Source of the DNA: Gemmobacter nectariphilus
GTDB lineage: Bacteria; Pseudomonadota; Alphaproteobacteria; Rhodobacterales; Rhodobacteraceae
Reading direction: 5' to 3'
NCBI GenBank assembly: GCA_020721445.1
Contig: DYMU01000011.1
Span: forward strand, 1-61,146
DNA length: 61,146 bases
The notes below the pieces were generated by a model that was not told the origin of the DNA, did not search any database, and worked only from the letters and a program-made list of their open reading frames with translations. The position numbers were made by a program, and so were the translations under genes. Below are positions 260-12,624 of this stretch, piece after piece. How positions within the stretch are numbered: position 1 is the first letter of the stretch; each line of letters opens with the position of its first letter.

Positions 260-733
260 TCAGGCGGGCGGGTCGGCCGTCCAGACCGCATTGCGGTCCT
301 GATAGTCATAGCTTGCGGCCATCATGCCCGCTTCGCCCTTCGGGTCGGCCTCACGGCAAAGCTGGCGCTGATACAACTCGGACAGGATCATCGGGCGATA
401 GGCCGCAGAGTCCATCTTGGCAAAGTAGCCGCAGGCTTTCAGCACCCGTCGCCGGGTGCCAACCTGTTCGCCAGACGGGTTGCGGTTCAACAGCGCCATC
501 AGCGCGGAAAACAGCGCAAGTTCCGCCTCGGGCATATCTTCAAGCAGCTTGCCAAGTTTTCGCACCGGAAGATCCGTGAAGCCAGCCCGGCGCAGGAAGT
601 CCCCAGCCCGCTGGGCTTCTTCATAGGACACCCCGTCTTCCAGCGGCGGAAGTGTCACCTCGATTCCGCATTCCCGGTTGCGGATGGTCAGCGCGCCGCG
701 CGGCGGCACCGTCATGGCCTTGCCTTCGGTCAT
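260..733 (-). CDS. Hypothetical protein (157 aa), mobile element
   Basis: I do not recognise a family. The start is placed at the ATG at 733 because its ATGA overlaps the TGA of the gene ending at 730, a typical coupled junction; the reading frame stays open further upstream but that part lies inside the neighbour. The protein is soluble, with no signal peptide or membrane segment. It has a short Ala/Leu-rich middle and an Arg/Lys-rich stretch before the end. It is the last visible gene of a minus-strand series running from the integrase. Function unknown. Confidence 0.6.
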   Translation of the reverse strand: MTEGKAMTVPPRGALTIRNRECGIEVTLPPLEDGVSYEEAQRAGDFLRRAGFTDLPVRKLGKLLEDMPEAELALFSALMALLNRNPSGEQVGTRRRVLKACGYFAKMDSAAYRPMILSELYQRQLCREADPKGEAGMMAASYDYQDRNAVWTADPPA

Positions 734-1191
734 TGGATCGCCCCTTCCATCATCTTGTCGGCGGGGGCGGCATTCCACGACAGGCCCGCGAAGACGTGTT
801 GCCCGTTGCTCTTGCGCTTCGGATAGCCCGCCTTGGCGAGGATCGCTTGCACCTCGGCCGAGGTGGCGCATTGGCGAACGCCGGTATCCCGCGCCCAGGC
901 GGTGAAGCGTTGCATGAAGTCGGTCGTCCTGATCCTGCCCTTGTAGTCGGGGAAGGTGTGACCGGCGACGAAGCCGGTAACGGCAAGGATCTTCGGTTCG
1001 GGCGTCAGGGCGGCCGCAATCATCGCGGGCGCACGGCCGCGACGGGGCGGGGGGGCGCTGTAGTGGTGGCGAAGCAGGCCATCCAGCAGCGCAATCTCGT
1101 CGCCTGTCATGGTCTGGATCAGCGCGGCGGCCTTCAGCCCCACCTGAAGGACGGTCGGGCGCGGCGGGGTGTTGTCGGGTTCGGGTGTCAT
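730..1191 (-). CDS. Hypothetical protein (153 aa), mobile element
   Basis: No family recognised. It is a soluble protein with an N-terminal Pro-rich tail and a mixed alpha/beta-looking body. It contains FAGLSWN near the C-terminus and a basic KRKSNGQ patch that could contact nucleic acid; that is a guess from composition only. It overlaps the next gene by 4 bp, so the two are probably translated together. About 620 bp of non-coding DNA lies upstream, so it may have its own promoter. Confidence 0.6.
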   Translation of the reverse strand: MTPEPDNTPPRPTVLQVGLKAAALIQTMTGDEIALLDGLLRHHYSAPPPRRGRAPAMIAAALTPEPKILAVTGFVAGHTFPDYKGRIRTTDFMQRFTAWARDTGVRQCATSAEVQAILAKAGYPKRKSNGQHVFAGLSWNAAPADKMMEGAIQ

Positions 1192-1513
1192 GTCTTACTC
1201 CGGTTTGGACGTGATGCGTTGGGCATCCAGCCTGCCGGGGATAACTGGGGCAGATCAGGGCGGCGGGATGCCCTCAAAGGGATGCGGGGCAATTGCTAAC
1301 GCTTTTTCTATGGGGCGGGCGGCCACGTCATTGGCGCGGCAACACATCGGAAATGAAGCGGCCCGCGTGTCCCTCTGCCAAGGATCACGCGGGCCGCAAG
1401 CTGCCTTCCGGGGCAGGACGTGACAGCATCAAGCGGGCCAAAAGGTTAAGGTTTCTGGCGCGAAGCGCGCGGGCCGCGCATCTGGCCCACTCGGGACGCC
1501 ACGCCAAAAAAAG

Positions 1514-1569
1514 GTGGGACAAAAATCCTGAAAAACCCTGACAATCAGTGCAAGATTTGAGTGTCCCAC
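1514..1569. repeat. Inverted repeat GTGGGACA / TGTCCCAC
   Basis: Perfect 8-bp arms at 1514-1521 and 1562-1569 are separated by a 40-bp A/T-rich spacer. The wide spacing argues against a terminator. It could be a protein-binding site or part of an attachment region. Confidence 0.4.
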
Positions 1570-1608
1570 TTTCTGATAACGTGTTGATTTCACGAAATAT
1601 GTGCAGCC

Positions 1609-1624
1609 CCCTACGGGCTGCCAC
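1609..1624 (+). repeat. 16-bp direct repeat, copy 1 (possible att-like site)
   Basis: The sequence CCCTACGGGCTGCCAC is identical to 9621-9636, which lies just outside the integrase start. Both copies include a small dyad (AGCCC..GGGCT). If these were the attachment cores, the element would span about 8 kb and exclude the two genes at 260-1191. The match is short, so this is tentative. Confidence 0.3.
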
Positions 1625-1675
1625 TTCCTTCTGTAAGTTATTGATTTTGCTGCGAAATTTCTAAGCGCCAAAATC

Positions 1676-1695
1676 CTACTACAGAACTACTACAG
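1676..1695 (+). promoter_or_regulatory. Phased CTACTACAG direct repeats
   Basis: Two perfect copies of CTACTACAG (1676-1684 and 1687-1695) start 11 bp apart, about one helical turn. Related CCTACT pairs occur at 4871-4887, 7208-7224 and 9481-9497, with a 22-bp-spaced pair at 5031-5057, so this is probably a binding site for an element-encoded regulator. Confidence 0.5.
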
Positions 1696-1761
1696 CGAAA
1701 AATCAGCCCCTTTTGACCTGCCGAAGCGCCGAAAGCGATCACGCGAACGTGAACGCAATGC

Positions 1762-1791
1762 TTACCCTAAGCGTCGGCTGCGCTGCATAAT
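1762..1791 (+). promoter_or_regulatory. Possible promoter for the 1814 gene
   Basis: CATAAT at 1786-1791 resembles a -10 box and lies 18 bp after TTACCC (1762-1767), a weak -35 match. It is 22 bp upstream of the start codon of the only plus-strand gene in the element. Confidence 0.35.
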
Positions 1792-1813
1792 ACGGCGAAA
1801 AGCAGGGGTTTGC

Positions 1814-2101
1814 ATGGACAACGTGACTTCGGACATTCTTACGGGCTTGGGTTTGGCGATAACCTTGATCGGGGCTTGGATAACCGCCCGCGCGGTCATT
1901 TTGAAGGAAGACGACGCAATCAACGTCGGGCTTGCTAGGTTCTCTGGAAAAGACCGCGAAGAAAACTTGCGCCTGCCTATGGTGCAGAATTTGCTTGCAT
2001 CTTCGCGTGGGGCGCGACGCGGCTTGCTGTTCATCGCGGGCGGAACTGCGCTGCAAATCGTGCCTATTGCCGTTCGGCTAATTTCGCTGGCAATCGCATA
2101 A
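1814..2101 (+). CDS. Small two-helix membrane protein (95 aa), opposite strand
   Basis: The ATG at 1814 has a good ribosome-binding site (AGGGG, 6 bases upstream). The protein has two hydrophobic segments, about residues 9-29 and 70-93, joined by a charged cytosol-like loop of about 40 residues containing KEDD and GKDREE. There is no family I recognise. It is the only gene of the element on the plus strand, has its own likely promoter, and ends at a strong hairpin terminator. That layout is typical of accessory cargo genes in satellites and prophages. A role in exclusion or toxicity is possible but not shown by sequence. Confidence 0.6.
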   Translation: MDNVTSDILTGLGLAITLIGAWITARAVILKEDDAINVGLARFSGKDREENLRLPMVQNLLASSRGARRGLLFIAGGTALQIVPIAVRLISLAIA

Positions 2102-2135
2102 AAAAGACCCCCGAAACCTTGCGGCAACGGGGGTC
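2100..2135 (-). terminator. Intrinsic terminator between convergent genes
   Basis: Perfect 8-bp stem GACCCCCG (2106-2113) / CGGGGGTC (2128-2135). On the minus strand it is followed by six T (2105-2100), so it is a classic rho-independent terminator for the gene ending at 2169. On the plus strand it directly follows the stop of the 1814 gene and may also slow that transcript. Confidence 0.8.
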
Positions 2136-2168
2136 AGGCAGCTTCCATAGTGGCCCTGTGGAAGATCG

Positions 2169-2555
2169 TTAGAAAGCGGCTGCGGGGATGCCCACAAGGG
2201 GCGCGTCGGGGTCGATACCCGCAGCGGTGCAGGCTTGGCGCATGGTGGCCCCTGTGGCGACCCGCAGCACGGCAACAGCGGGGAAATCGGGCCGTCCTGC
2301 CCCTGCAAGCCAAGCGATGTGCTGCGCCCTGTCAGACAGCCGGGGTTGCCCTTCCGGCGCAGCCCATGTGGGCACATAGCCCGGCGTAAGGGTGAACAGG
2401 GGCAGACAGCCCGCAGGCGCTTCCGGCGGCACGTCGTCAAGCCCGACCGTGACCAACTCCCCGAACGGGCCGCGAAGGATCAAGTCGCCCTTGGGGCTGC
2501 GGTCGTTCTGCGGCGAAGCGGCAAGCCATGCGGCGATTTGGGCTGCGGCGGTCAT
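2169..2555 (-). CDS. Hypothetical protein (128 aa), mobile element
   Basis: Start ATG at 2555 overlaps the stop of the upstream 241-aa gene by 4 bp. This is the last gene before a strong terminator at 2100-2135, so it closes the minus-strand transcript. The sequence is soluble, rich in Ala, Pro and Gly, and contains LILRGPFGELVTVGLDDVP, a beta-rich-looking stretch. No known family is recognised. Phage accessory proteins of this size are common next to scaffold-like genes, but nothing specific identifies it. Confidence 0.6.
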   Translation of the reverse strand: MTAAAQIAAWLAASPQNDRSPKGDLILRGPFGELVTVGLDDVPPEAPAGCLPLFTLTPGYVPTWAAPEGQPRLSDRAQHIAWLAGAGRPDFPAVAVLRVATGATMRQACTAAGIDPDAPLVGIPAAAF

Positions 2556-3277
2556 TGCCCTTCCCCGGTCGCAAGGGGCGCGTCAACTTCGACCCGCGAC
2601 GCCATGCCAGCTTCAACGCCGGGACTGTAGAAGCTTCGCGGGATTTCCATTGCGACGCTGGCAAGGCTCCGGTCAAGCCCGGCGATTTCTTGCGCCACCT
2701 TGACCCGTGCGGCGGCGTCGGGCGCGTGGGCAACGGCGGCATCAAAGCGAAGGGTCTTCAAGCGGTCGGCTGACAGGCCAGAGAGCGCAGCGGGGGCTTC
2801 CAGCAAGGCAGATGCAAAGCGAAGGTCACTTTCCACCAAGCCCCGCAGTTCAACCGTAAATTCGGCGGCTTTGTCGCCCGTCAAGGACGCGCGAACGAAC
2901 TGCCTGATTTCGCTTCGCAGAACTTGGGCTGCGGTGCCAATGTCGCCCGTCAACACTCGGTCGATTTCGGCCATTGCGGCGTTCGTTTCGTTTTCCGCAT
3001 AAGCTTTCAGTTCGGCGCGGGTCTTGCTGATTTCGGCAACGACCGCTTCGGCAATCTTGCGCGCGGCTTGGTGGCGCTGCGGTTCCGAACGGGTCTTATC
3101 CCATTCCAGCGCCGAAACACGCTTTACGGCGTCGTCAACGGCATAGTGCAGTTTCGCAAGCTTCGTTCCCGGCGCAGCGTCCAGTTTGGACCAATCGCCC
3201 ATCATGGCTTTTCGCCCGCTATCGGTCGAAAGGAATTGCATCGTTTGCAGGGCTTGGGGCGTTTTAACTGGGGCCAT
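2552..3277 (-). CDS. Alpha-helical hypothetical protein (241 aa), mobile element
   Basis: The start at 3277 has an AAGGA ribosome-binding site 8 bases upstream. The protein looks almost entirely helical, rich in Ala, Glu, Lys and Arg, with heptad-like stretches at about residues 60-100 and 115-160 that could form coiled coils. It has no signal peptide or membrane helix. It is flanked by overlapping small genes of the same transcript. Scaffold-like or DNA-associated roles would fit such composition, but no family is recognised, so the function stays unknown. Confidence 0.6.
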   Translation of the reverse strand: MAPVKTPQALQTMQFLSTDSGRKAMMGDWSKLDAAPGTKLAKLHYAVDDAVKRVSALEWDKTRSEPQRHQAARKIAEAVVAEISKTRAELKAYAENETNAAMAEIDRVLTGDIGTAAQVLRSEIRQFVRASLTGDKAAEFTVELRGLVESDLRFASALLEAPAALSGLSADRLKTLRFDAAVAHAPDAAARVKVAQEIAGLDRSLASVAMEIPRSFYSPGVEAGMASRVEVDAPLATGEGQ

Positions 3278-3280
3278 TTT

Positions 3281-3658
3281 TCAGTTCCTTGTGAGTGTAA
3301 AGGCGTCAATCTCGCGCCCGTGTGCTTCGAAAAATCGTTGGCGCTTCATGCCGGGTTTCAGGGGTGCAGCGGTGCCCACAATGCCGGGGGCTTGGGCGTC
3401 GGCTTCGTTGGTTTCTTCGCCAAGTTGCGCGGCATAGCGGGCAACGTCGGCCATGAGGCTTTGCTGTTGCAGAAGGCAACGGCCTTCAAACTCGCCCGGC
3501 TTAAAGCGAACGCCGCCTATAACGCCGATGAACGGCCCTTCGCCCTTCCATGCGGGCCAATTTTGGCTATCGCAGTAATTCAGGATGCCGATAATCTTCG
3601 ACGGGCTGCGCTTCGCAGCTTCAAGGCGTTCGATACGGGCGGCAAGGTTCCGGGTCAT
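3281..3658 (-). CDS. Hypothetical protein (125 aa), mobile element
   Basis: The N-terminus (NLAARIERLEAA) is a short amphipathic helix of the kind often found at the front of small phage-encoded proteins in alphaproteobacteria. The middle contains IIGILNYCDSQNWPAW followed by a beta-rich stretch. Start ATG at 3658 lies in a 4-bp overlap with the following frame. It ends 3 bp before the 241-aa gene. No family recognised; the overlaps support a single co-translated operon. Confidence 0.6.
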   Translation of the reverse strand: MTRNLAARIERLEAAKRSPSKIIGILNYCDSQNWPAWKGEGPFIGVIGGVRFKPGEFEGRCLLQQQSLMADVARYAAQLGEETNEADAQAPGIVGTAAPLKPGMKRQRFFEAHGREIDAFTLTRN

Positions 3659-3903
3659 TCTGCCAACCCTTCAAGCTTCGCCAAGCGCCCTTCAAATTCG
3701 CCGCTTTCGATCATGCGGGACAGGATAGCCAAAGCGTTCACAAGCCGGGACATATCCTCGATTTTGATTTCGCCTTCCAAGGCGCGACGATACTGCCGGG
3801 CTGCCTCACGCCGCGTGTCGAAGACCGTATCCAGCCGAACACGGCTGCGGCGCAGTTTGACGGGGGGTGTGCCCCAAGGGCCTTGCGTAGCGGGCGTATT
3901 CAT
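3655..3903 (-). CDS. Hypothetical protein (82 aa), mobile element
   Basis: The ATG at 3903 is preferred over an upstream GTG/ATG-like extension to 3990, because that extension has unusual composition and sits in the A+T-rich gap. The protein is basic in its first half (KLRRSRVRLD) and ends in a helical Leu/Glu-rich segment with LVNALAILSRMIESGEFEGRL split over two turns. This looks like a small DNA-associated phage protein, but I cannot name a family. It overlaps the next gene by 4 bp. Confidence 0.55.
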   Translation of the reverse strand: MNTPATQGPWGTPPVKLRRSRVRLDTVFDTRREAARQYRRALEGEIKIEDMSRLVNALAILSRMIESGEFEGRLAKLEGLAE

Positions 3904-4027
3904 CACTTTGAACCGACATTTTTGACCATTTCGACTATCTGAAACCGACAGAATTGCGGGCTGGCAAGGGGGTAAATTGGGGCCAGACAACGGCAGACAA
4001 ACCGGGACAAAAGAAAGTTTCTGCGCC

Positions 4028-4249
4028 CTAACCCCATGCCATTTTCAGCTTGCGAAGGTCGGCCCGGCGCTGCCTTTCAGCGTCATTCCGGGCCTTCCCC
4101 CTATCATCCGACCCGCCCGCGTTTTGCAGACGGTTGCGGCGCTTGGCTGCGGTCGAAGCGTCCTTCTTCATGGCTGCGGCCATTTCGGCAAGGTCAGCTT
4201 CGGTAAGGGCCGCAGGGTTGCCGAAGGCGTTACGAAGACGCGCGTTCAT
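4028..4249 (-). CDS. Small basic protein (73 aa), mobile element
   Basis: A short, highly charged protein with an acidic, helical first third (LTEADLAEMAAAMKK) and a strongly basic second half rich in Arg, Lys and Asn. It starts 1 bp after the stop of the 201-aa gene, so it is translated as part of the same message. The basic tail suggests nucleic-acid binding, which is inference from composition only. No family recognised. Confidence 0.5.
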   Translation of the reverse strand: MNARLRNAFGNPAALTEADLAEMAAAMKKDASTAAKRRNRLQNAGGSDDRGKARNDAERQRRADLRKLKMAWG

Positions 4250-4250
4250 A

Positions 4251-4856
4251 TCAGTTCCCTTTGCCGATCATTCGCCCGGAACTTTCCAGCGCCCGCATAC
4301 GGCGTTCAAGATGCGCGGGGGGAACCTTTGCGGCGTCATAGTTCAAACCACGACGACGCAGTTCGCGGTTGATTTCTTCCCGAACGCCGGGAAGGCTTGC
4401 GGCAGCAAGATGCAAAATGCCGTTCCATCCCGCACCGATCAAAACGCCGTTGTCGGGCCGATGCAGTTCTTCGACATACCTTTGCGTCAAGATTGCACGA
4501 TAGCGCGGGAAATACGTTGCGGTATGAAACGACAACTGATTTCCGCAAGCCCAAAGCCTATTTGGCCTAAGACGCCGCTGCATCGGGTGTGGCTTGTCGG
4601 TGAAGCCGCCGACACACTTCCAAAGGAAGATTTCGGCACCTGCGGTTGCATCCCATTGTATGAAGCACGTTGCACCCTGCACAATTCCGGCGACTTGTTC
4701 GATGTAGAACCTGCAAAGGTATTCTTCGACTTCAACAGGGTCTGGAATTTGCCGTTCAAGTAGTTTGTCTTCGGCGATATTCAGAATTTTCCTGACATAT
4801 TCATGCGACGTGTCGTCAAACAAAGCTTCTTTGTCGCGGTCGATTGTGGCTTTCAT
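4251..4856 (-). CDS. Hypothetical protein (201 aa), first gene of the accessory operon
   Basis: The start at 4856 follows an AAGGAA ribosome-binding site and sits directly downstream of a phased CCTACT repeat pair (4871-4887), so this gene probably begins a separately controlled transcript running through the 73-, 82-, 125-, 241- and 128-aa genes. The protein is soluble. A Cys/Trp-rich centre (FIQWDATAG, FLWKCVGGF) is followed by a helical C-terminus with LRRRGL and ERRMRALE. No family recognised. It might be a replication or packaging accessory factor given its position beside the primase, but nothing in the sequence proves that. Confidence 0.6.
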   Translation of the reverse strand: MKATIDRDKEALFDDTSHEYVRKILNIAEDKLLERQIPDPVEVEEYLCRFYIEQVAGIVQGATCFIQWDATAGAEIFLWKCVGGFTDKPHPMQRRLRPNRLWACGNQLSFHTATYFPRYRAILTQRYVEELHRPDNGVLIGAGWNGILHLAAASLPGVREEINRELRRRGLNYDAAKVPPAHLERRMRALESSGRMIGKGN

Positions 4857-5116
4857 TTCGGCATTTCCTTAGTAGGTATGTAGTAGGTTTCTTCGACGTT
4901 CATTTCGGCCTTATTTCATTGACATACTTGGCAGCCTTGGGTGCTGCCGTGGTGCGCTTGCCCACATGGGGGGCATTGGGTCGCGGCAGCCGTGGCACCG
5001 TGACTTCCGACCGTCAGTTAATTCTGCCCGAGTAGTTCCCCCATACCCCCTGAGTAGAGAACTCACGGGGGGTGTATGGGTTCGAAGTGACGGTATCGTT
5101 AGTTCCGAACTCACGG
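4857..5116. other. Dyad-rich non-coding region downstream of the primase (candidate origin)
   Basis: This 260-bp gap is packed with repeats. It contains an imperfect inverted repeat around 5041-5080 (CCCATAC...CTCA), two copies of GAACTCACGG (5059-5068 and 5107-5116), a near-perfect inverted pair ACCGTGACTTC/GAAGTGACGGT (4998-5008, 5084-5094), a GGCAGC/GCTGCC hairpin near 4930, and AGTAG motifs exactly 22 bp apart (5031, 5053). A cis-acting replication origin for the adjacent primase is the leading interpretation; regulation or termination is the alternative. Confidence 0.45.
4871..4887 (-). promoter_or_regulatory. Phased AGTAGG direct repeats upstream of the 201-aa gene
   Basis: AGTAGG occurs at 4871-4876 and 4882-4887, an exact 11-bp spacing, 15 bp upstream of the start codon at 4856. 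The position suits an operator that controls the accessory operon. Confidence 0.5.
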
Positions 5117-7147
5117 TCACGCCCCCTTGCCATACCGGGGGTCGTCAGGCTGCAAAACACCCCAACTTTGGAAGTCGTTTCCTTTCTTCCATTCTTTTAG
5201 CTTTGTAATGCGACCGCTTGCGAACAGCCGTTCGATTGAAATTCGAACCTTTCGCCGTGTTTCTTTGTCGCCGTCGGGATAGTCCTTTCCGAACATTTCG
5301 GCCAAACACTGATAGAAATTCCTTGACCCTGTTAGCGATGTTCGAATGGGTTCGCCCCGCTTGTAGGCCAATTCGATGTGGGTAAAGACCTGTTCAACAA
5401 ACGGCGACAAGCTTTCGTCAATCGCGTCGGCAATTTCGTGATTGGACAGCGACGATAGAACGCCGTTTTCCGGGTTGCGCTTCAATCGGACAGGTTCGGC
5501 AAGCGCCCCGTAGTTCGTCTTTTCGTGCGACACTACGACGTGTTCGGGAATGCCGTTTTCGGCTGGCACTTTCCGAATGAACATGCGCGACCTGAAAGCA
5601 TTGTTCCAAGCAACCGTGCCCGAATACGTCTTACTGATCGGGCCAAACTTCGTTGAAGCCGTTTCGGCGTTGACGTGCGCTAGAAGCACAATCGCGCAAT
5701 GGTTTTCCCGCGCAATTCGGCGCAGTTCGGTTGCAAAGGCGGTCACTTGAACTTGGTCGTTCGGGTTCGCTTGAAACAAGTTGCTGGCATTGTCCAAGAC
5801 GACAAACCTTGCCGAAGTTGCGCGAATGTCGGCGGCTAGTGCTGCCATTGCGGGCGTAGCTTTCCCCGCCGGATTGTCACGATCAACAACCCACAATGCG
5901 ACCCCTAGCACGTCACGACAATTGATATTGGCTAGACCCTCATGCTTCCATTGACCGCAGCTTGCGATATGGCGCGACTTTTCGATATGCTGAAAACGTT
6001 CGTCTAGGATTTTCAGCGTGTCTTCGGCGGTCCAGATTAAGACGGGGCTAACACGATCAACTTTGCCGATTATTTCGCCCGAACCTGTTCCGACATAAAC
6101 GGCGACTTGCTGCATAAGGTATGTCTTACCCGTGCCGCCATCGCCGGATAGAAGGGTTGCTTCCCCTTCCGGTATTCTGCGCTCGATTACGAATGCCTGC
6201 GGGGGTTCTTTTTCGAACTTGGTTCGCATTTCGACAAGGCTCATAAGCCCATCGCCCGTGGTGCCCCCCTGCCCGCTGGCAGGCTGCCCTATGGCTGCGG
6301 CTATCTGCGCCCCATGCGCCCCTTGTGCGGCTGCCTGTTGCCGTTCCTGCGCCCCCCGGCGGGCTGCCTTGGGGTATTCAGTTGCCCACAGGCGTTCGAC
6401 CTTCTGCGCCCGCGTCTTCCCGTCCTTGGGCGGGCCGTTCTGGACAAGGGGGCTTGCCATGACGACCCGGCGAACCTGTTCTTCGTCGCTGGAAAAGAGG
6501 CATAGGGCAGACAGAACGGGGAAATAGCTTTCCGACCAATCGACAACGTTCTTGCCGTTGAAGTGATCCGCGTTCGCAGGCGAACCGCAGATCAGTTCGA
6601 CAAGCCGTTCGTCAGTGATTGGCGCAGCCGGGTTCGGGTCGTTGATCGGGGTTAAAGGCGTGTGGGCATCGAAGGTCGAAGCCTGTCGTTGCGAAACCCA
6701 TTCGGGGCATGGCGCAGGTTCTGCCCAATTTTCGACCGTGTATATTCCCCCCGCAAATGTCGAAGGGGCAAGCATGATGTAGCCGTTATGCTTGATTTCG
6801 GTCGCTTCGCAGAGTTTGCCGGGATACTTCGCAGCGTCTTCCGCCCGAAAGATCAGGTGAAACCCGCCCCGCGCTGATTTCTGCGTCAGGGTTGCGGGCA
6901 GGTTGCGGCCCTGCATGAAGGCGTTGAACTCGCATTCGGGCTTGTAAATATCGGCATCGACCGCGACCAAACCCGATTTCGCAAGGTTGCAGCCGATATT
7001 CGCGTCAGAATTTTGCGTCCACCATTGTTCAACTTGCGCCAGATCATTCGACGCAACAGTTTGCCAGCCGCCCGCAAGAAGCTTGTCTTTCGTTCCGTTC
7101 TGGACAGGGAAGACGCAAAGGCCAAGTTTGGCCCAATGAAGCGCCAT
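5117..7147 (-). CDS. Primase-polymerase / AAA helicase replication protein
   Basis: Likely replication initiator of the element. The first ~150 residues match the archaeo-eukaryotic Prim-Pol type (bifunctional DNA primase/polymerase), including VAVDADIYKPE with the metal-binding acidic residues and ARGGFHLIFR. A central RecA/AAA-like ATPase follows, with Walker A GDGGTGKT near residue 332 and a Walker B-like VVLDNAS near 449, as in RepA-type hexameric helicases. The start at 7147 is chosen because AAAAGGG lies 5 bases before it; an in-frame ATG at 7192 has no ribosome-binding site. A well-placed ribosome-binding site and ATG at 7236 are in another frame (see finding). At 676 aa it has normal length for such fusions. 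Confidence 0.85.
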   Translation of the reverse strand: MALHWAKLGLCVFPVQNGTKDKLLAGGWQTVASNDLAQVEQWWTQNSDANIGCNLAKSGLVAVDADIYKPECEFNAFMQGRNLPATLTQKSARGGFHLIFRAEDAAKYPGKLCEATEIKHNGYIMLAPSTFAGGIYTVENWAEPAPCPEWVSQRQASTFDAHTPLTPINDPNPAAPITDERLVELICGSPANADHFNGKNVVDWSESYFPVLSALCLFSSDEEQVRRVVMASPLVQNGPPKDGKTRAQKVERLWATEYPKAARRGAQERQQAAAQGAHGAQIAAAIGQPASGQGGTTGDGLMSLVEMRTKFEKEPPQAFVIERRIPEGEATLLSGDGGTGKTYLMQQVAVYVGTGSGEIIGKVDRVSPVLIWTAEDTLKILDERFQHIEKSRHIASCGQWKHEGLANINCRDVLGVALWVVDRDNPAGKATPAMAALAADIRATSARFVVLDNASNLFQANPNDQVQVTAFATELRRIARENHCAIVLLAHVNAETASTKFGPISKTYSGTVAWNNAFRSRMFIRKVPAENGIPEHVVVSHEKTNYGALAEPVRLKRNPENGVLSSLSNHEIADAIDESLSPFVEQVFTHIELAYKRGEPIRTSLTGSRNFYQCLAEMFGKDYPDGDKETRRKVRISIERLFASGRITKLKEWKKGNDFQSWGVLQPDDPRYGKGA

Positions 7148-7207
7148 TCGGCCCTTTTCGGATAGCTGTTGGTTGTGGGTATCGGACTGCATTTCGGGCC
7201 ATTCTTG

Positions 7208-7224
7208 ATTAGGTTCTTAGTAGC
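7208..7224 (-). promoter_or_regulatory. Degenerate phased repeat upstream of the primase
   Basis: Read on the minus strand, GCTACT and CCTAAT start 11 bp apart, matching the spacing of the clearer CCTACT pairs elsewhere in the element. It lies in the leader of the primase gene. Confidence 0.3.
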
Positions 7225-7296
7225 AATCGCGGACATAGCATTTCCCCTTTTGCTTCAATCTCTTAGCGGATGATTGGGCAGCGTATCCGGCTGCCA

Positions 7297-7605
7297 TTAC
7301 GCGCAATGCTTGCGGGCTTCGGTCAGTTGAATGACCAAGGCGCGAATTTCGTCGTCAGACTTTCCGGCGATACGGGCGGCAAGAATGGCGTTCACTTCGA
7401 ACGCGGGCCACGCCGAAGACTTCGACCCCAACTTAATCGGCGGGGTCATAAGCCCGGCGGCAATCCAAGCGTAGATTGTGGCGCGTGAAGCGCGGGCGAC
7501 GTTGCCCAAGTCAGGCACCCCAAGCAAGGCGTTGGGCACAATCTGCATTGCGCCTTTCGGGTGATCGGGCTGCGGGCTGGCAGTCGTGTTGGTAAGGGTG
7601 TTCAT
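7297..7605 (-). CDS. AlpA-like helix-turn-helix regulator / excisionase
   Basis: The 102-aa protein carries a single winged helix-turn-helix of the AlpA/MerR-like excisionase type: RATIYAWIAAGLMTPPIKLG then a basic wing and a C-terminal helix (DEIRALVIQL). In P4-like islands such proteins act as transcriptional switch or recombination directionality factor. The start at 7605 is taken as the first ATG with normal composition; an upstream alternative at 7620 adds five residues. It lies between the primase and the 148-aa gene, with two palindromes just upstream (7615-7632, 7638-7650) that suit autoregulation. Confidence 0.75.
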   Translation of the reverse strand: MNTLTNTTASPQPDHPKGAMQIVPNALLGVPDLGNVARASRATIYAWIAAGLMTPPIKLGSKSSAWPAFEVNAILAARIAGKSDDEIRALVIQLTEARKHCA

Positions 7606-7614
7606 TGGTGCAGT

Positions 7615-7632
7615 CCTCATATGTTTCTGAGG
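7615..7632. promoter_or_regulatory. Small inverted repeat at the alpA-like start
   Basis: CCTCA (7615-7619) and TGAGG (7628-7632) form a short dyad overlapping the 5' end of the regulator gene. Possible operator half of an autoregulatory circuit. Confidence 0.3.
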
Positions 7633-7637
7633 ATCAA

Positions 7638-7650
7638 CCTAGCCGCTAGG
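7638..7650. promoter_or_regulatory. Perfect palindrome CCTAGC-C-GCTAGG
   Basis: A 13-bp perfect dyad lies about 35 bp upstream of the AlpA-like start codon. Its position and symmetry suit an operator for a dimeric regulator. Confidence 0.4.
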
Positions 7651-7673
7651 GCACCAAATCAGGAAGTCGGGGC

Positions 7674-7704
7674 TTGTCCGGCAAAGGCTGGATTTGCCGG
7701 ACAA
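7674..7704. terminator. Strong 12-bp hairpin downstream of the 148-aa gene
   Basis: TTGTCCGGCAAA (7674-7685) and TTTGCCGGACAA (7693-7704) pair perfectly around a 7-base loop. It begins three bases after the minus-strand stop at 7708. There is no T-run after it, so it may be a processing or stabilising structure or a binding site and not a classic terminator. Confidence 0.45.
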
Positions 7705-7707
7705 CTA

Positions 7708-8154
7708 TTATTTTTCAGACACTTGCAGGCGTTCGCGTGAAGGCAGTTGCGAAACAGACGAACGGTCAAGCCATGCGTTGACAGTGCTGCGGCTTGGCAA
7801 GGTCGTGACACCGCCCGCGACCATTTCGCCTATCAGCGTCTTGAAGGCGTTGCGCGGTTTATAGGCTTTCAGTTCGACATATCGCGACGACCAATGCGCC
7901 TTGAATATCGCCGAATACTTCCCGTCGTCGCCGACTGCATTCAACAGCCCCAATGCCCGCATGAAGCGGTCGGCGTTGATTTCGCCTTGTGGCGTCAAAC
8001 CGACTTTCACGGCTTGGAAGAACCAAAGCGCAAGTTCGGGCGGCACGGGTTGCCCACAGGTCATGGCGTTTGCCATTTGCACAAGGCGGTCGCCCGCTTC
8101 TTCACCGGAATGCGGCAAATGCCCGTCGAACCCGCCGAACGGTAGCAGGGTCAT
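7708..8154 (-). CDS. Hypothetical protein (148 aa), coupled to the integrase
   Basis: The ATG at 8154 shares TAATG with the integrase stop, so the two are translationally coupled; that decides the start over an upstream in-frame extension to 8223. The protein is soluble, with no signal or membrane helix. It contains a Trp/Phe-rich core (ELALWFFQAVKVGL) and a C-terminal SRSTVNAWLDRS that resembles a DNA-contacting helix. No family recognised. Its coupling with the integrase suggests a role in integration, excision or early control. Confidence 0.6.
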   Translation of the reverse strand: MTLLPFGGFDGHLPHSGEEAGDRLVQMANAMTCGQPVPPELALWFFQAVKVGLTPQGEINADRFMRALGLLNAVGDDGKYSAIFKAHWSSRYVELKAYKPRNAFKTLIGEMVAGGVTTLPSRSTVNAWLDRSSVSQLPSRERLQVSEK

Positions 8155-9473
8155 TACGCAACCCCCGCCCGCAGTTGAACGACCTTTGCGGCGACCGCTT
8201 CGCCCTGACAGAAGCCCGCCCAAGCCGCCATCATGGCCCGGCGCTGTTCAACAAGATCGGTTCGGCGGTAACGCTGTTCAACTTCGTTGCCGACGCGATG
8301 CGCCAAGGCGATTTCGGATTGAATATTGTCGATACCCGCTTCGGTCGCCCAATCCTTGAAGGTGCTGCGAAGGCCATGCGGCACGGCAGGGCGCGGTTGC
8401 GGTGTTTCGGCGGGGTCTTCGGGTTGTGTCAGAACATGCGGGTCAATCCAGCCCTTGCCGTTCTTCTTCGCCTTGGCTTCGTTCATGCGCTTCATTACGG
8501 CGGAAATTGTGGCGTCTGACATTTCGCCACCACGGGGGGCCGGGAAGACAAGCGCCTTCGGGTCGTTGTGATCGGCTTCGAAGTTCGGAAGCGCCTTCAA
8601 GACGGCAATCGCGGCGTCAGACAAGGGCACCGAATGCGGTTTTTTCATCTTCATGCGAACGGCGGGGATAGTCCAAATCTTCGCCGCAAGGTCAATTTCG
8701 CCCCAAGTCGCCCCGCGAACTTCGCCCGACCGCGACGCGCAAAGGGTCACAAATTCCAGCGCCCGCGCTGCCATGCCTTCACGCTGGCGAAGATCGGCAA
8801 ACCATGTGGGCAAGTCGGCTTGCGGAATAGCAGGATGGTTCTGCGCTTCGGCCTTCTTTTGGTTCCCTATCCAGACTTCAAGCGTCTTCGGCGACGCCGG
8901 GTTGTCTGTTTCGCGGCAACCTTCGTCAATCGCCCAAGCGAACACGCTTTCCATACGACCGCGAACCCGGCGGGCCGTGTCGGTTTTCGTCGCCCAAATC
9001 GGCTTCAAAACTTCCTTCACGTCGTCAATCGTGATGGTGCCCACATCCTTGTCGCCAATCTTCGGCACGGCATGAAGGTCAAGGCTTGCCCGCCATTGCT
9101 TGCGGTGCTTGTCGCTGCGGAAGTCTTCGATGCGACCCGACTTCATGTATTCGTCAAGCGCGTCGGCAAAGGTTACGACCTTTGGCGCGTCGGGCACGAC
9201 CTTCTTTGCGCGGCGTTCTTCAACAGGATCACGCCCTTCCCGAACGACGACCCGCAGCCGATCAACTTCAATGCGGGCTTCTTTCAACGAAACGTCTTCA
9301 TACGACCCAAGGCCCATGCCGCGCATTTTGCCGTTGATGGTGTAGCGGAAGACCCAAGACTTCGTGCCCCAAACCGACACTTGCAGGTAAAGCCCCCTGC
9401 CGTCGCGGTAGTGACCGGGCTTCGTCTTGGCCTTCACCGTCTTGTCGTCCAGAAGATCGGAACCCCGTGCCAT
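8154..9473 (-). CDS. P4-type site-specific tyrosine recombinase (integrase)
   Basis: 439 aa, normal length for the P4 integrase family. The N-terminal arm-type DNA-binding domain (DUF4102-like) shows GHYRDGRGLYLQV and a predicted beta-hairpin. The core-binding domain spans about 100-200. The catalytic domain carries ASRSGEVR (first Arg, about 250), HGLRSTF (His-x-x-Arg, about 366), LAHRVG (His, about 388) and the nucleophile Tyr in RYRRTD (about 402), so the enzyme looks intact. It integrates and excises the element. The gene is the right-most of the island and is transcribed into it, the usual arrangement with an attachment site just upstream of the start. Confidence 0.93.
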   Translation of the reverse strand: MARGSDLLDDKTVKAKTKPGHYRDGRGLYLQVSVWGTKSWVFRYTINGKMRGMGLGSYEDVSLKEARIEVDRLRVVVREGRDPVEERRAKKVVPDAPKVVTFADALDEYMKSGRIEDFRSDKHRKQWRASLDLHAVPKIGDKDVGTITIDDVKEVLKPIWATKTDTARRVRGRMESVFAWAIDEGCRETDNPASPKTLEVWIGNQKKAEAQNHPAIPQADLPTWFADLRQREGMAARALEFVTLCASRSGEVRGATWGEIDLAAKIWTIPAVRMKMKKPHSVPLSDAAIAVLKALPNFEADHNDPKALVFPAPRGGEMSDATISAVMKRMNEAKAKKNGKGWIDPHVLTQPEDPAETPQPRPAVPHGLRSTFKDWATEAGIDNIQSEIALAHRVGNEVEQRYRRTDLVEQRRAMMAAWAGFCQGEAVAAKVVQLRAGVA

Positions 9474-9480
9474 GTGCTAT

Positions 9481-9501
9481 CCTACTCAATTCCTACTACA
9501 G
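9481..9501 (+). promoter_or_regulatory. Phased CCTACT repeats at the integrase start
   Basis: CCTACT at 9481-9486 and 9492-9497 are exactly 11 bp apart; the second extends into CTACTACAG, the same 9-mer found twice at 1676-1695. They lie 8 to 28 bp upstream of the integrase start codon, where arm-type sites or an integrase operator would be expected. Confidence 0.5.
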
Positions 9502-9620
9502 AAATTTGGCAGAAACAGGTGGACAACACAAGACGGCGGCAGACGACACAATGGGGCAAGCAATTGGAAACAATGGGAATTTTAGACTGTCCTAGACGCT
9601 GGCAGACATACCAATGGAAG

Positions 9621-9636
9621 CCCTACGGGCTGCCAC
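9621..9636 (+). repeat. 16-bp direct repeat, copy 2 (possible att-like site)
   Basis: Identical to 1609-1624. It lies about 150 bp outside the integrase start, the place where P4-type elements normally keep an attachment core. Confidence 0.3.
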
Positions 9637-10132
9637 CTTTCCCTGCAAGCTTGTGCTGTATCTGGCCGCTGCTTTATCGGCAGCTCCGGCGTCGGCCCTG
9701 TGCCGATCAAGGCACACGCAGCGTTCCGCGTGGCCACGGATGGCGTTTGACATGTTGGCAGGCATGTTCCTATACCAGTTCCAGATCGCTTCAGATGGGG
9801 TGTGAATGGCTTTGTCGCGATGTAAGCCGCCCGTGTGGCGCTTGCAGATAGCCGGACAGTCTGGGCGAAGTGGCTCGGGTCTTGCGGCGGAGCGGACAAG
9901 CATCCGTCAAGGCGATGGTCCTCGCGATATTTTCGGTCTGGTTTCGATCTTTTCCGCATTGGACTGAACCGTTTTCGACTATTCTGGCCCAGTCTGTCGC
10001 AAGCAGGAAGGATGATTTCGGCCAGCCTGCCACAGCCCTTCTGACAAGACACTGACACTTCAATCCGCGACGGCGACCGCCGACGACATGCCGACGATGC
10101 CGCCGCCTCCTTTAGCTCAGGTGCGGCCGATA

Positions 10133-11949: not shown

Positions 11950-12624
11950 CTAGCCGGTCACCCGCCCGTCACCCACCACGATCTGCCGGGAACAGGTTGC
12001 GGCGATCTTTTCGTCATGGGTCGAGATCAGGAAAGTGGTGCCCTCATCGCGGTTGATCTGGCCGATCAACTCCATCACCTGCAAGGCCGAGGCGCGGTCA
12101 AGGTTGCCGGTGGGTTCGTCGGCCAGCACCAGTTCGGGCGCGTTCATCAGGGCGCGGGCCACGGCGACGCGCTGCTTTTGCCCGCCCGACAGCTTGGTCG
12201 AGGCAAAGTTGATGCGTCCAGCCAGCCCCATCCGGGTCAGCAACTCCTTGCCGCGGGTGCGGGCGGCGGCGGTTTCGCGACCTTCGCGGATGGCGGTGGG
12301 GAAGATCACGTTTTCCAGCGCGGTAAAGTCTGGCAACAGATTGTGGAACTGGAACACAAAGCCGATGTGCCGGTTGCGAAATTGGGTCAGTTCGGCATCG
12401 CTGGCAATGGTCAGGTCCACCCCCAGCATCTGATGCGTGCCCGATGTCGGCTGCATCAGCGTGCCCAGAATGGTCAGCAAGGTGCTTTTGCCCGACCCCG
12501 ATGGCCCCAGAAGCGCCGCCATCTGGCCCTTTTCCAGCGTCAGGTTCAGCCCGCGCAACACATGGGTTGCGGTATCACCTTCCCCGAAGGTCTTGACCAG
12601 ATCGCTGACGCCCAGCAGCATCAT
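11950..12624 (-). CDS. ABC transporter ATP-binding protein (MacB/LolD type)
   Basis: 224 aa, the length of a stand-alone LolD/MacB-type ATPase. Walker A GPSGSGKST (40-48), a Q-loop at VFQFHNLLP, the signature LSGGQKQRVAVA, Walker B LVLADEP followed by TGNLD, and H-loop STHD are all intact. It overlaps the permease gene by 4 bp and forms a three-gene set with it and the adaptor protein: ATPase, FtsX-like permease, periplasmic adaptor. Such sets export peptides, macrolides or lipids by a mechanotransmission mechanism; substrate unknown. Confidence 0.9.
   Translation of the reverse strand: MMLLGVSDLVKTFGEGDTATHVLRGLNLTLEKGQMAALLGPSGSGKSTLLTILGTLMQPTSGTHQMLGVDLTIASDAELTQFRNRHIGFVFQFHNLLPDFTALENVIFPTAIREGRETAAARTRGKELLTRMGLAGRINFASTKLSGGQKQRVAVARALMNAPELVLADEPTGNLDRASALQVMELIGQINRDEGTTFLISTHDEKIAATCSRQIVVGDGRVTG

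Follow-up and report, generated by a model that had tools for sequence, protein, structure and literature searches.

Gene content and limits of element A

We analyzed a stretch of 61,146 nucleotides (nt) from Gemmobacter nectariphilus, hereafter the window, which comprises bases 1-61146 of contig C44 (83,639 bp) in a genome assembly of 53 contigs and 3.07 Mb. An earlier note, made from the sequence alone, had described positions 260-9636 as one satellite-like island. This interval instead holds a complete unit of 8,028 bp, element A (1609-9636), bounded by a 16-bp direct repeat at either end, together with the end of a second, phage-like element. The left attachment core (1609-1624, plus strand) and the right core (9621-9636, plus strand) are identical and consist of the last 15 nt of tRNA-Glu(UUC) plus one base.

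Element A contains ten genes, all on the minus strand, in the order integrase (int), 148-amino-acid (aa) protein, AlpA-like protein, Prim-Pol/AAA replication protein (rep), and proteins of 201, 73, 111, 125, 241 and 128 aa. From int through the 128-aa gene the intergenic gaps are -1, 87, 104, 260, 1, 37, -4, 3 and -4 nt. The tyrosine integrase (8154-9473, 439 aa), assigned by Pfam and PHROGs, has an N-terminal arm-binding domain (Arm-DNA-bind_3, E 4.6e-23) in addition to Phage_int_M (1.6e-23) and Phage_integrase (2.9e-15) domains. Outside the window, positions 82578-83495 of the same contig encode another integrase from this broad family (40% identity). The 148-aa gene (7708-8154), without a family match, overlaps int by 1 nt and has the position of iolg in phage-inducible chromosomal minimalist islands (PICMIs). 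The AlpA-like excisionase/regulator (7297-7620, 107 aa) matches phrog_66 (excisionase and regulator) at 1e-6 and lies just below the Pfam cut-off (E 8.4e-4; 19.6 versus 21 bits). The replication protein (5117-7192, 691 aa; Pfam and PHROGs) combines Prim-Pol (E 5.4e-23) and AAA_25 (E 3e-25) domains.

The downstream operon is headed by the 201-aa gene (4251-4856), of which the tail is retained in one relative (L037) and the first residues in another (L023). It continues with the 73-aa gene (4028-4249; 56% identical in the relative L104), the 111-aa gene (3655-3990, listed with a TTG start), whose product is distantly DUF5681-like in its C-terminal part, and the 125-aa gene (3281-3658, from the list of open reading frames, ORFs), which overlaps the 111-aa gene by 4 nt. 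The 241-aa gene (2552-3277) encodes an all-helical protein according to its structure model, the most widely found of the module in profile searches, and the 128-aa gene (2169-2555), which recurs in pieces near tRNA-Glu in relatives, lies closest to the left core.

The seven A proteins other than the integrase, AlpA-like and replication proteins had no match above chance in Pfam, PHROGs or NCBIfam (phrog_14440, at E 0.024 for the 241-aa protein, is at chance level), and no match of any of the ten genes to capsid, portal, terminase or conjugation families in these databases was convincing, as the earlier note had stated. Ten proteins gave no match in PADLOC, and in NCBIfam ten proteins yielded just weak acetyltransferase matches to a 153-aa protein encoded outside A, far under the cut-off. 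The replication protein matched no PDB sequence and no annotated plasmid at 1e-20; it matched 32 annotated phage records at 1e-8, none of them spanning 80% of the protein, and a single virus contig weakly over 33 residues. No virus contig matched P0001 (the 201-aa protein), P0002, P0003 or the 111-aa alignment, and no annotated phage or plasmid matched the 111-aa protein. Structure-based searches, proposed in the earlier note, could be carried through for the 241-aa protein, whose model is usable (predicted local distance difference test, pLDDT, 70.6; predicted template modelling score, pTM, 0.60) and matched nothing in the PDB or BFVD at E <= 0.001, weak long-helix matches being read as chance; the model of the 128-aa protein is poor (pLDDT 41.2).

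Most of what the earlier note said of individual genes is borne out: the ORFs it named are on the minus strand in the ORF list, the P4-type integrase and the Prim-Pol/AAA protein are clear by Pfam, and the AlpA-like regulator and the coupling of the 148-aa gene to int hold as described above. Its run of tightly packed small genes is confirmed by the gaps within A, but its protein list omits the 73- and 111-aa genes and includes 153- and 157-aa genes that lie outside A.

The 16 bases of the core are the longest exact direct word common to positions 1-2169 and 9474-10061, a length reached in none of 2000 first-order Markov shuffles. Each of the 16 genomes of the genus carries one to three copies of the 16-mer (31 places in total), and the reversed 16-mer pattern has no place in them. 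A tRNA-Glu(UUC) was found at 23 of the 28 places scanned for tRNAs and was absent from five; two of the three places left out of the scan are the window's own copies. The window itself contains no tRNA, and an Rfam scan of it gave no match. To the right of A, host DNA related to other genomes is back by 10061-10066, preceded by a weak 41-bp match, starting at 9734, to the upstream region in the genome G015, and followed by a 588-aa ORF that resembles a SulP-type transporter by eye. Contig C28, considered for an empty-site comparison via G015, shares with G015 the sequence to the left of the transporter and then runs into other host genes, and this comparison was dropped.

Relatives of element A

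Relatives were sought in 394 genomes of the family and 16 of the genus, the own genome included in each case. A profile of the 241-aa protein found 13 of the 394 family genomes. A complete relative, L104, lies in another genus (G291) between a tRNA-Glu core at 4211 and a core at 12522, and its gene order is similar, a recurrence that the earlier note had proposed to look for; its att arms are conserved as well. From the tRNA-Glu core inward it encodes homologs of the 128-, 241-, 125-, 111- and 73-aa proteins, then a 181-aa gene in the position of the 201-aa gene (BLASTP finds no similarity between the two products), and in its far part a replication protein split in two ORFs, AlpA, and a 103-aa gene that shares 1 nt with int. 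The integrase is 78% identical to that of A.

Other relatives vary in site or content. L105 (G184) is a variant at tRNA-Met, flanked by 15-bp repeats, one at 7435 and the other where the tRNA-Met ends (14714). Its integrase is 53% identical to that of A, and int overlaps a 134-aa gene by 4 nt. Also present are AlpA, a 194-aa gene, homologs of the 111- and 241-aa proteins, a 269-aa gene that is nuclease-like by eye, and a small gene matching one in L037; its replication-type protein is 32% identical to the DUF3987 protein of L023. L037, from a metagenome-assembled genome of Rhodobacteraceae, has the tail of the 201-aa gene, homologs of the 111-aa (69%), 241-aa and 128-aa proteins, an HNH endonuclease (phrog_119, 5e-11), a tRNA-Asn, and a 73-aa gene like the 125-aa gene in position and first residues only. 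L023 (G013) has an integrase (82%), AlpA, the DUF3987 protein and, at the contig end, 18 residues of a 201-aa homolog. At seven further loci (L089, L090, L108, L109, L110, L112 and L176), fragments of the 128-aa gene are situated close to tRNA-Glu or the 16-mer. Given these relatives and fragments, the small-gene module is a mobile unit that recurs, and the replication gene that accompanies it varies.

One of the seven, L176 (G002, contig C23, 801-2180), has a tRNA-Glu core, an arm pair, a split ORF pair and the 128-aa piece, and looks like the scar of a lost relative. At L032 (G252, contig C64, 18-12580) a related integrase, an overlapping gene, AlpA, a replication protein and a DUF5681-like ORF adjoin ORFs that are McrBC-like, methylase-like and PIN-protein-like by eye. 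P0001 was tried as a family marker and discarded: it matched two of the 394 family genomes at E <= 0.001, one being the own genome and the other (G384) a match antisense to a host ORF that was judged chance. In the genus it was found in two of the 16 genomes. Two fecal virus clones (MT836812.1 and MT837765.1), represented by ORF lists only, were not used.

A profile built from four sequences of the 111-aa protein detected 15 of the 394 family genomes at E <= 0.01, four of them strongly, the own genome included. Three ORFs at weaker matches were tested, and all three are DUF5681 proteins above the Pfam cut-off. By eye, a small protein with a start like that of the 125-aa protein follows in L132 and L135, with phage-like ORFs downstream in L135. 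L137 combines DUF5681 with an AAA_25 protein, an AlpA-like match and int, which a further gene overlaps by 4 nt. A role of the 111-aa protein like that of a small terminase subunit is only a guess.

Paired sites in 11-bp phase

Pattern searches located four sites in element A at which a short word is repeated in 11-bp phase: in the left attachment (att) arm, 67 bp inside the core (1676-1692, plus strand); directly upstream of the 201-aa gene (4871-4886, minus strand); directly upstream of rep, with a degenerate second half (7208-7223, minus strand); and upstream of int in the right att arm (9482-9499, plus strand). What is new here is the placement of paired words at attL and ahead of both int and rep, joined in A and one relative by a pair ahead of the operon that starts with the 201-aa gene. 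The word CTACTA occurs six times in A and six times, at the same places, in L104, and is absent from positions 10000-61146 of the window. In 500 shuffles of A it occurred 0.31 times on average (maximum 4) and never as an 11-bp pair, of which A itself has two. Allowing up to one mismatch, CTACTA-N5-CTAMT has four matches in the 61 kb (0.01 expected), which are the four sites above, and three in L104 (0.04 expected), where the rep site retains one half only. Of 175 loci, 13 have the exact pair. All 13 are copies of the window, L104 or the tRNA-side ends in G002 and G314, and each of the four genomes concerned has one pair that begins 67 bp inward from the core.

Pairs of other words occur in other relatives: CTACCC at attL, rep and int in L105, GCCTAAG at int and rep in L023, and CCTAAC at int with CCTAAC/CCTAAG at rep in L032. 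All five elements have the word in reverse orientation at int and in forward orientation at rep. The int/rep pairs were tested in 37 integrase loci, with script-estimated int starts; 16 loci without an AlpA-like match were dropped, and among the 21 scored, five were convincing and one was borderline. Shuffles scored at or above the real sequence in 2 of 200 cases for the window, in none of 200 for L104, L105, L032 and L023, and in 6 of 200 for the borderline L161.

The integrases of the window and L023 are 99% identical after residue 92 and 42% identical before it, and their words differ; the DNA identity jumps at about 9180-9200, just beyond the Arm-DNA-bind_3 domain. The window and L104 share the same word, with arm domains 86% and AlpA proteins 53% identical, and L104 and L023 have different words, with AlpA proteins 70% identical and the same putative recognition helix by eye. 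Based on these three comparisons, the word goes with the arm domain, whereas neither AlpA nor the catalytic domain accounts for it. Drawn from five elements, this pattern is suggestive of a paired word that tracks the arm-binding domain of the integrase rather than AlpA, and it suggests that the integrase also regulates element A. An integrase that regulates its own gene through sites overlapping the int promoter is known from P4.

Other elements at the tRNA-Glu site

The earlier note had considered a continuation to the left of the window. The left edge of the window is a contig end, as the window starts at base 1 of C44, and what lies left of A belongs to a phage-like element B, set apart from A by the core at 1609-1624. 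The 153-aa gene (730-1191, minus strand) and the 157-aa gene (260-733, minus strand) of B recur in contig C35 of the own genome, to which positions 681-1476 are 84% identical (153-aa protein 80%, 157-aa protein 33%); neither protein matched annotated plasmids. C35 encodes another integrase (phrog_1, 3.2e-21), an HK97-type capsid-protease fusion (phrog_617, 7.6e-118) and a major tail protein (phrog_1407, 4.2e-25), with no terminase or portal among the ORFs tested. The same 48-bp tRNA-Phe 3' end is found near both ends of this contig (L087, 1-8901), which is possibly a complete small element assembled apart.

The sole assembled tRNA-Glu with the 16-mer end in the own genome is on contig C29. Beside it, compared by eye and by DNA rather than with hidden Markov models, are an integrase of another type, an excisionase-like ORF, and ORFs of 129 aa (reading the same as the C35 tail protein), 624 aa (capsid-like) and 213 aa, and then the contig ends; the window opens with the genes that come next in the C35 order. 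Element B would thus lie between the tRNA and A, one half on C29 and the other on C44, with about 0.4-0.5 kb missing between the halves if the order is as in C35. Element A is probably placed in tandem behind B, which is small too and has capsid and tail genes. Since two tRNA-Glu genes with the 16-mer end are present in several relatives, the own genome may have a second, unassembled copy.

In G015 the element at the same tRNA-Glu encodes TerL (phrog_9, 1e-50) and a head protease (phrog_80, 2.1e-20), and its integrase shares 38% identity with that of A. This TerL/head-protease element lies between two tRNA-Glu cores, with another integrase at the second core (L085, contig C75, 1772-13707), and is a tandem build-up at the site. 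In G006 (L083, contig C23, 2153-17228), 15 kb lie between two 16-mers, with tRNA-Glu at the first, an integrase of a different type and remaining ORFs that are restriction- or defence-like by eye.

Relation to known satellites

P4-like satellites combine a P4-type integrase, an AlpA-like protein, a primase-helicase and a tRNA site, all of which A shares, but no P4 packaging or capsid-size family was found among its ten proteins in Pfam or PHROGs. A likewise resembles the PICMIs of Vibrionaceae (PMC10803314), which carry int, alpA and a primase and, in 21 of 35 subfamilies, a gene whose overlap with int measures 1, 4 or 13 nt, require int, alpA and the overlapping gene for excision, have fis as their hallmark site, and are known as complete elements from Vibrio only, with incomplete variants elsewhere. 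Like them, A is small, with int, an overlapping gene (1 nt), AlpA (by the near-threshold Pfam and the PHROGs match), a primase-type replication gene and no recognised capsid gene. It differs in having Prim-Pol and AAA_25 instead of a DUF3987/DUF5906 primase (the relative L023 has DUF3987), a tRNA-Glu core instead of fis, four further conserved small genes, a Rhodobacteraceae host and a helper that is only presumed. Since site and primase differ despite the shared anatomy, A is PICMI-like and not a PICMI.

Gram-negative phage-inducible chromosomal islands (PICIs) such as EcCIMP1 also have an integrase with AlpA downstream and a replication module (PMC11773190). Compared with PICIs and capsid-forming PICIs (cfPICIs), no TerS or capsid-remodelling gene could be recognised in A, where head and terminase matches stayed at chance level and the 111-aa protein is distantly DUF5681-like, and its paired sites follow the arm domain and not AlpA. 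In KplE1, IntS is negatively autoregulated through arm-type sites overlapping the int promoter (PMC2951348), whereas in A such sites are found also before the replication gene and, in two elements, the downstream operon. In the part of the open-access literature that was searched, we met no integrase-type sites before a replication gene.

Interpretation

We read A as a complete, minimal, phage-satellite-like element of Rhodobacteraceae at the 3' end of tRNA-Glu, of PICMI type and with paired sites read by its integrase, with a probability of roughly 0.6. It is considered satellite-like because of its gene order, size, tRNA attachment sites, lack of head or conjugation matches and complete relative in another genus. 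The earlier suggestion of a satellite or small integrative element is thereby supported for A, but not for 260-9636 as a whole. The integrase, the overlapping 148-aa gene and AlpA would excise A, the Prim-Pol/AAA protein would replicate the circle, and a helper phage would supply particles. The paired repeats would be arm-type sites of the integrase, which in the integrated state would silence int, rep and the downstream operon until AlpA, once expressed, shifts the complex to excision and releases all three. More tentatively, the integrase could be a master repressor, its arm domain reading element-specific pairs at the att arms, int, rep and downstream operon and making integration and expression one switch.

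Several points weigh against this reading. The pattern CTACTA-N5-CTAMT was devised after the sites had been seen, 16 of the 21 scored loci have no convincing int/rep pair (15 negative, one borderline), and the downstream-operon site is present in two of the four elements viewed (A and L104), not in L105 nor in the sequenced part of L023. Binding of the pairs by the integrase is presumed from five elements. Excision, particles and helper have none of them been observed, and transfer by a helper phage is likewise presumed; the PF03354 terminase, the only terminase family searched for, has no match in the own genome but occurs in five of the 16 genus genomes. The 111/125/241/128-aa set is a conserved module, and its possible involvement in packaging is the least supported step.

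The same element could instead use the paired repeats as operators of AlpA, acting as excisionase and as regulator of int, rep and the downstream operon. The position of the pairs at promoters and att arms is compatible with this, and AlpA is the master regulator in Gram-negative PICIs (PMC11773190). We consider it unlikely, as the words of L104 and L023 differ although their AlpA proteins are 70% identical with the same helix by eye, the word of the window and L104 is the same although theirs are only 53% identical, and alpA expression in PICMI115 left satellite gene expression unaltered (PMC10803314). Phage-independent movement of A, for instance as an integrated replicon that travels along by conjugation or transformation, would fit the lack of capsid, portal and terminase matches above chance and of virus-contig relatives other than the one weak replication-protein match. 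It is doubtful to a similar degree, given that the gene order fits that of the PICMIs, that neighbours and site-mates at tRNA-Glu carry head genes, and that Pfam and NCBIfam scans found no relaxase or conjugation family in A.

Decay of related ends beside tRNA-Glu in several genomes might suggest that A is an immobile remnant too, but its ten ORFs are all open, the cores are identical and the arms are retained, which makes this improbable. That 260-9636 forms one island, for which only the common strand of the genes speaks, is very improbable: there is a core with its arm at 1609-1692, L104 abuts tRNA-Glu with its end at the same point, and C35 has the 153/157-aa pair again, in the company of capsid and tail genes and a different integrase.

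PICMI-like elements are now described at tRNA genes in Rhodobacteraceae, amid elements with head genes at the same site. Element A and its relatives are also a candidate case of an integrase that regulates a whole element, in which the same catalytic domain is joined to different arm domains with correspondingly different sites. If this is true, recombination that swaps an arm domain along with its sites would give a new regulatory specificity to the same catalytic domain, and the pair formed by the window and L023 suggests such an exchange.

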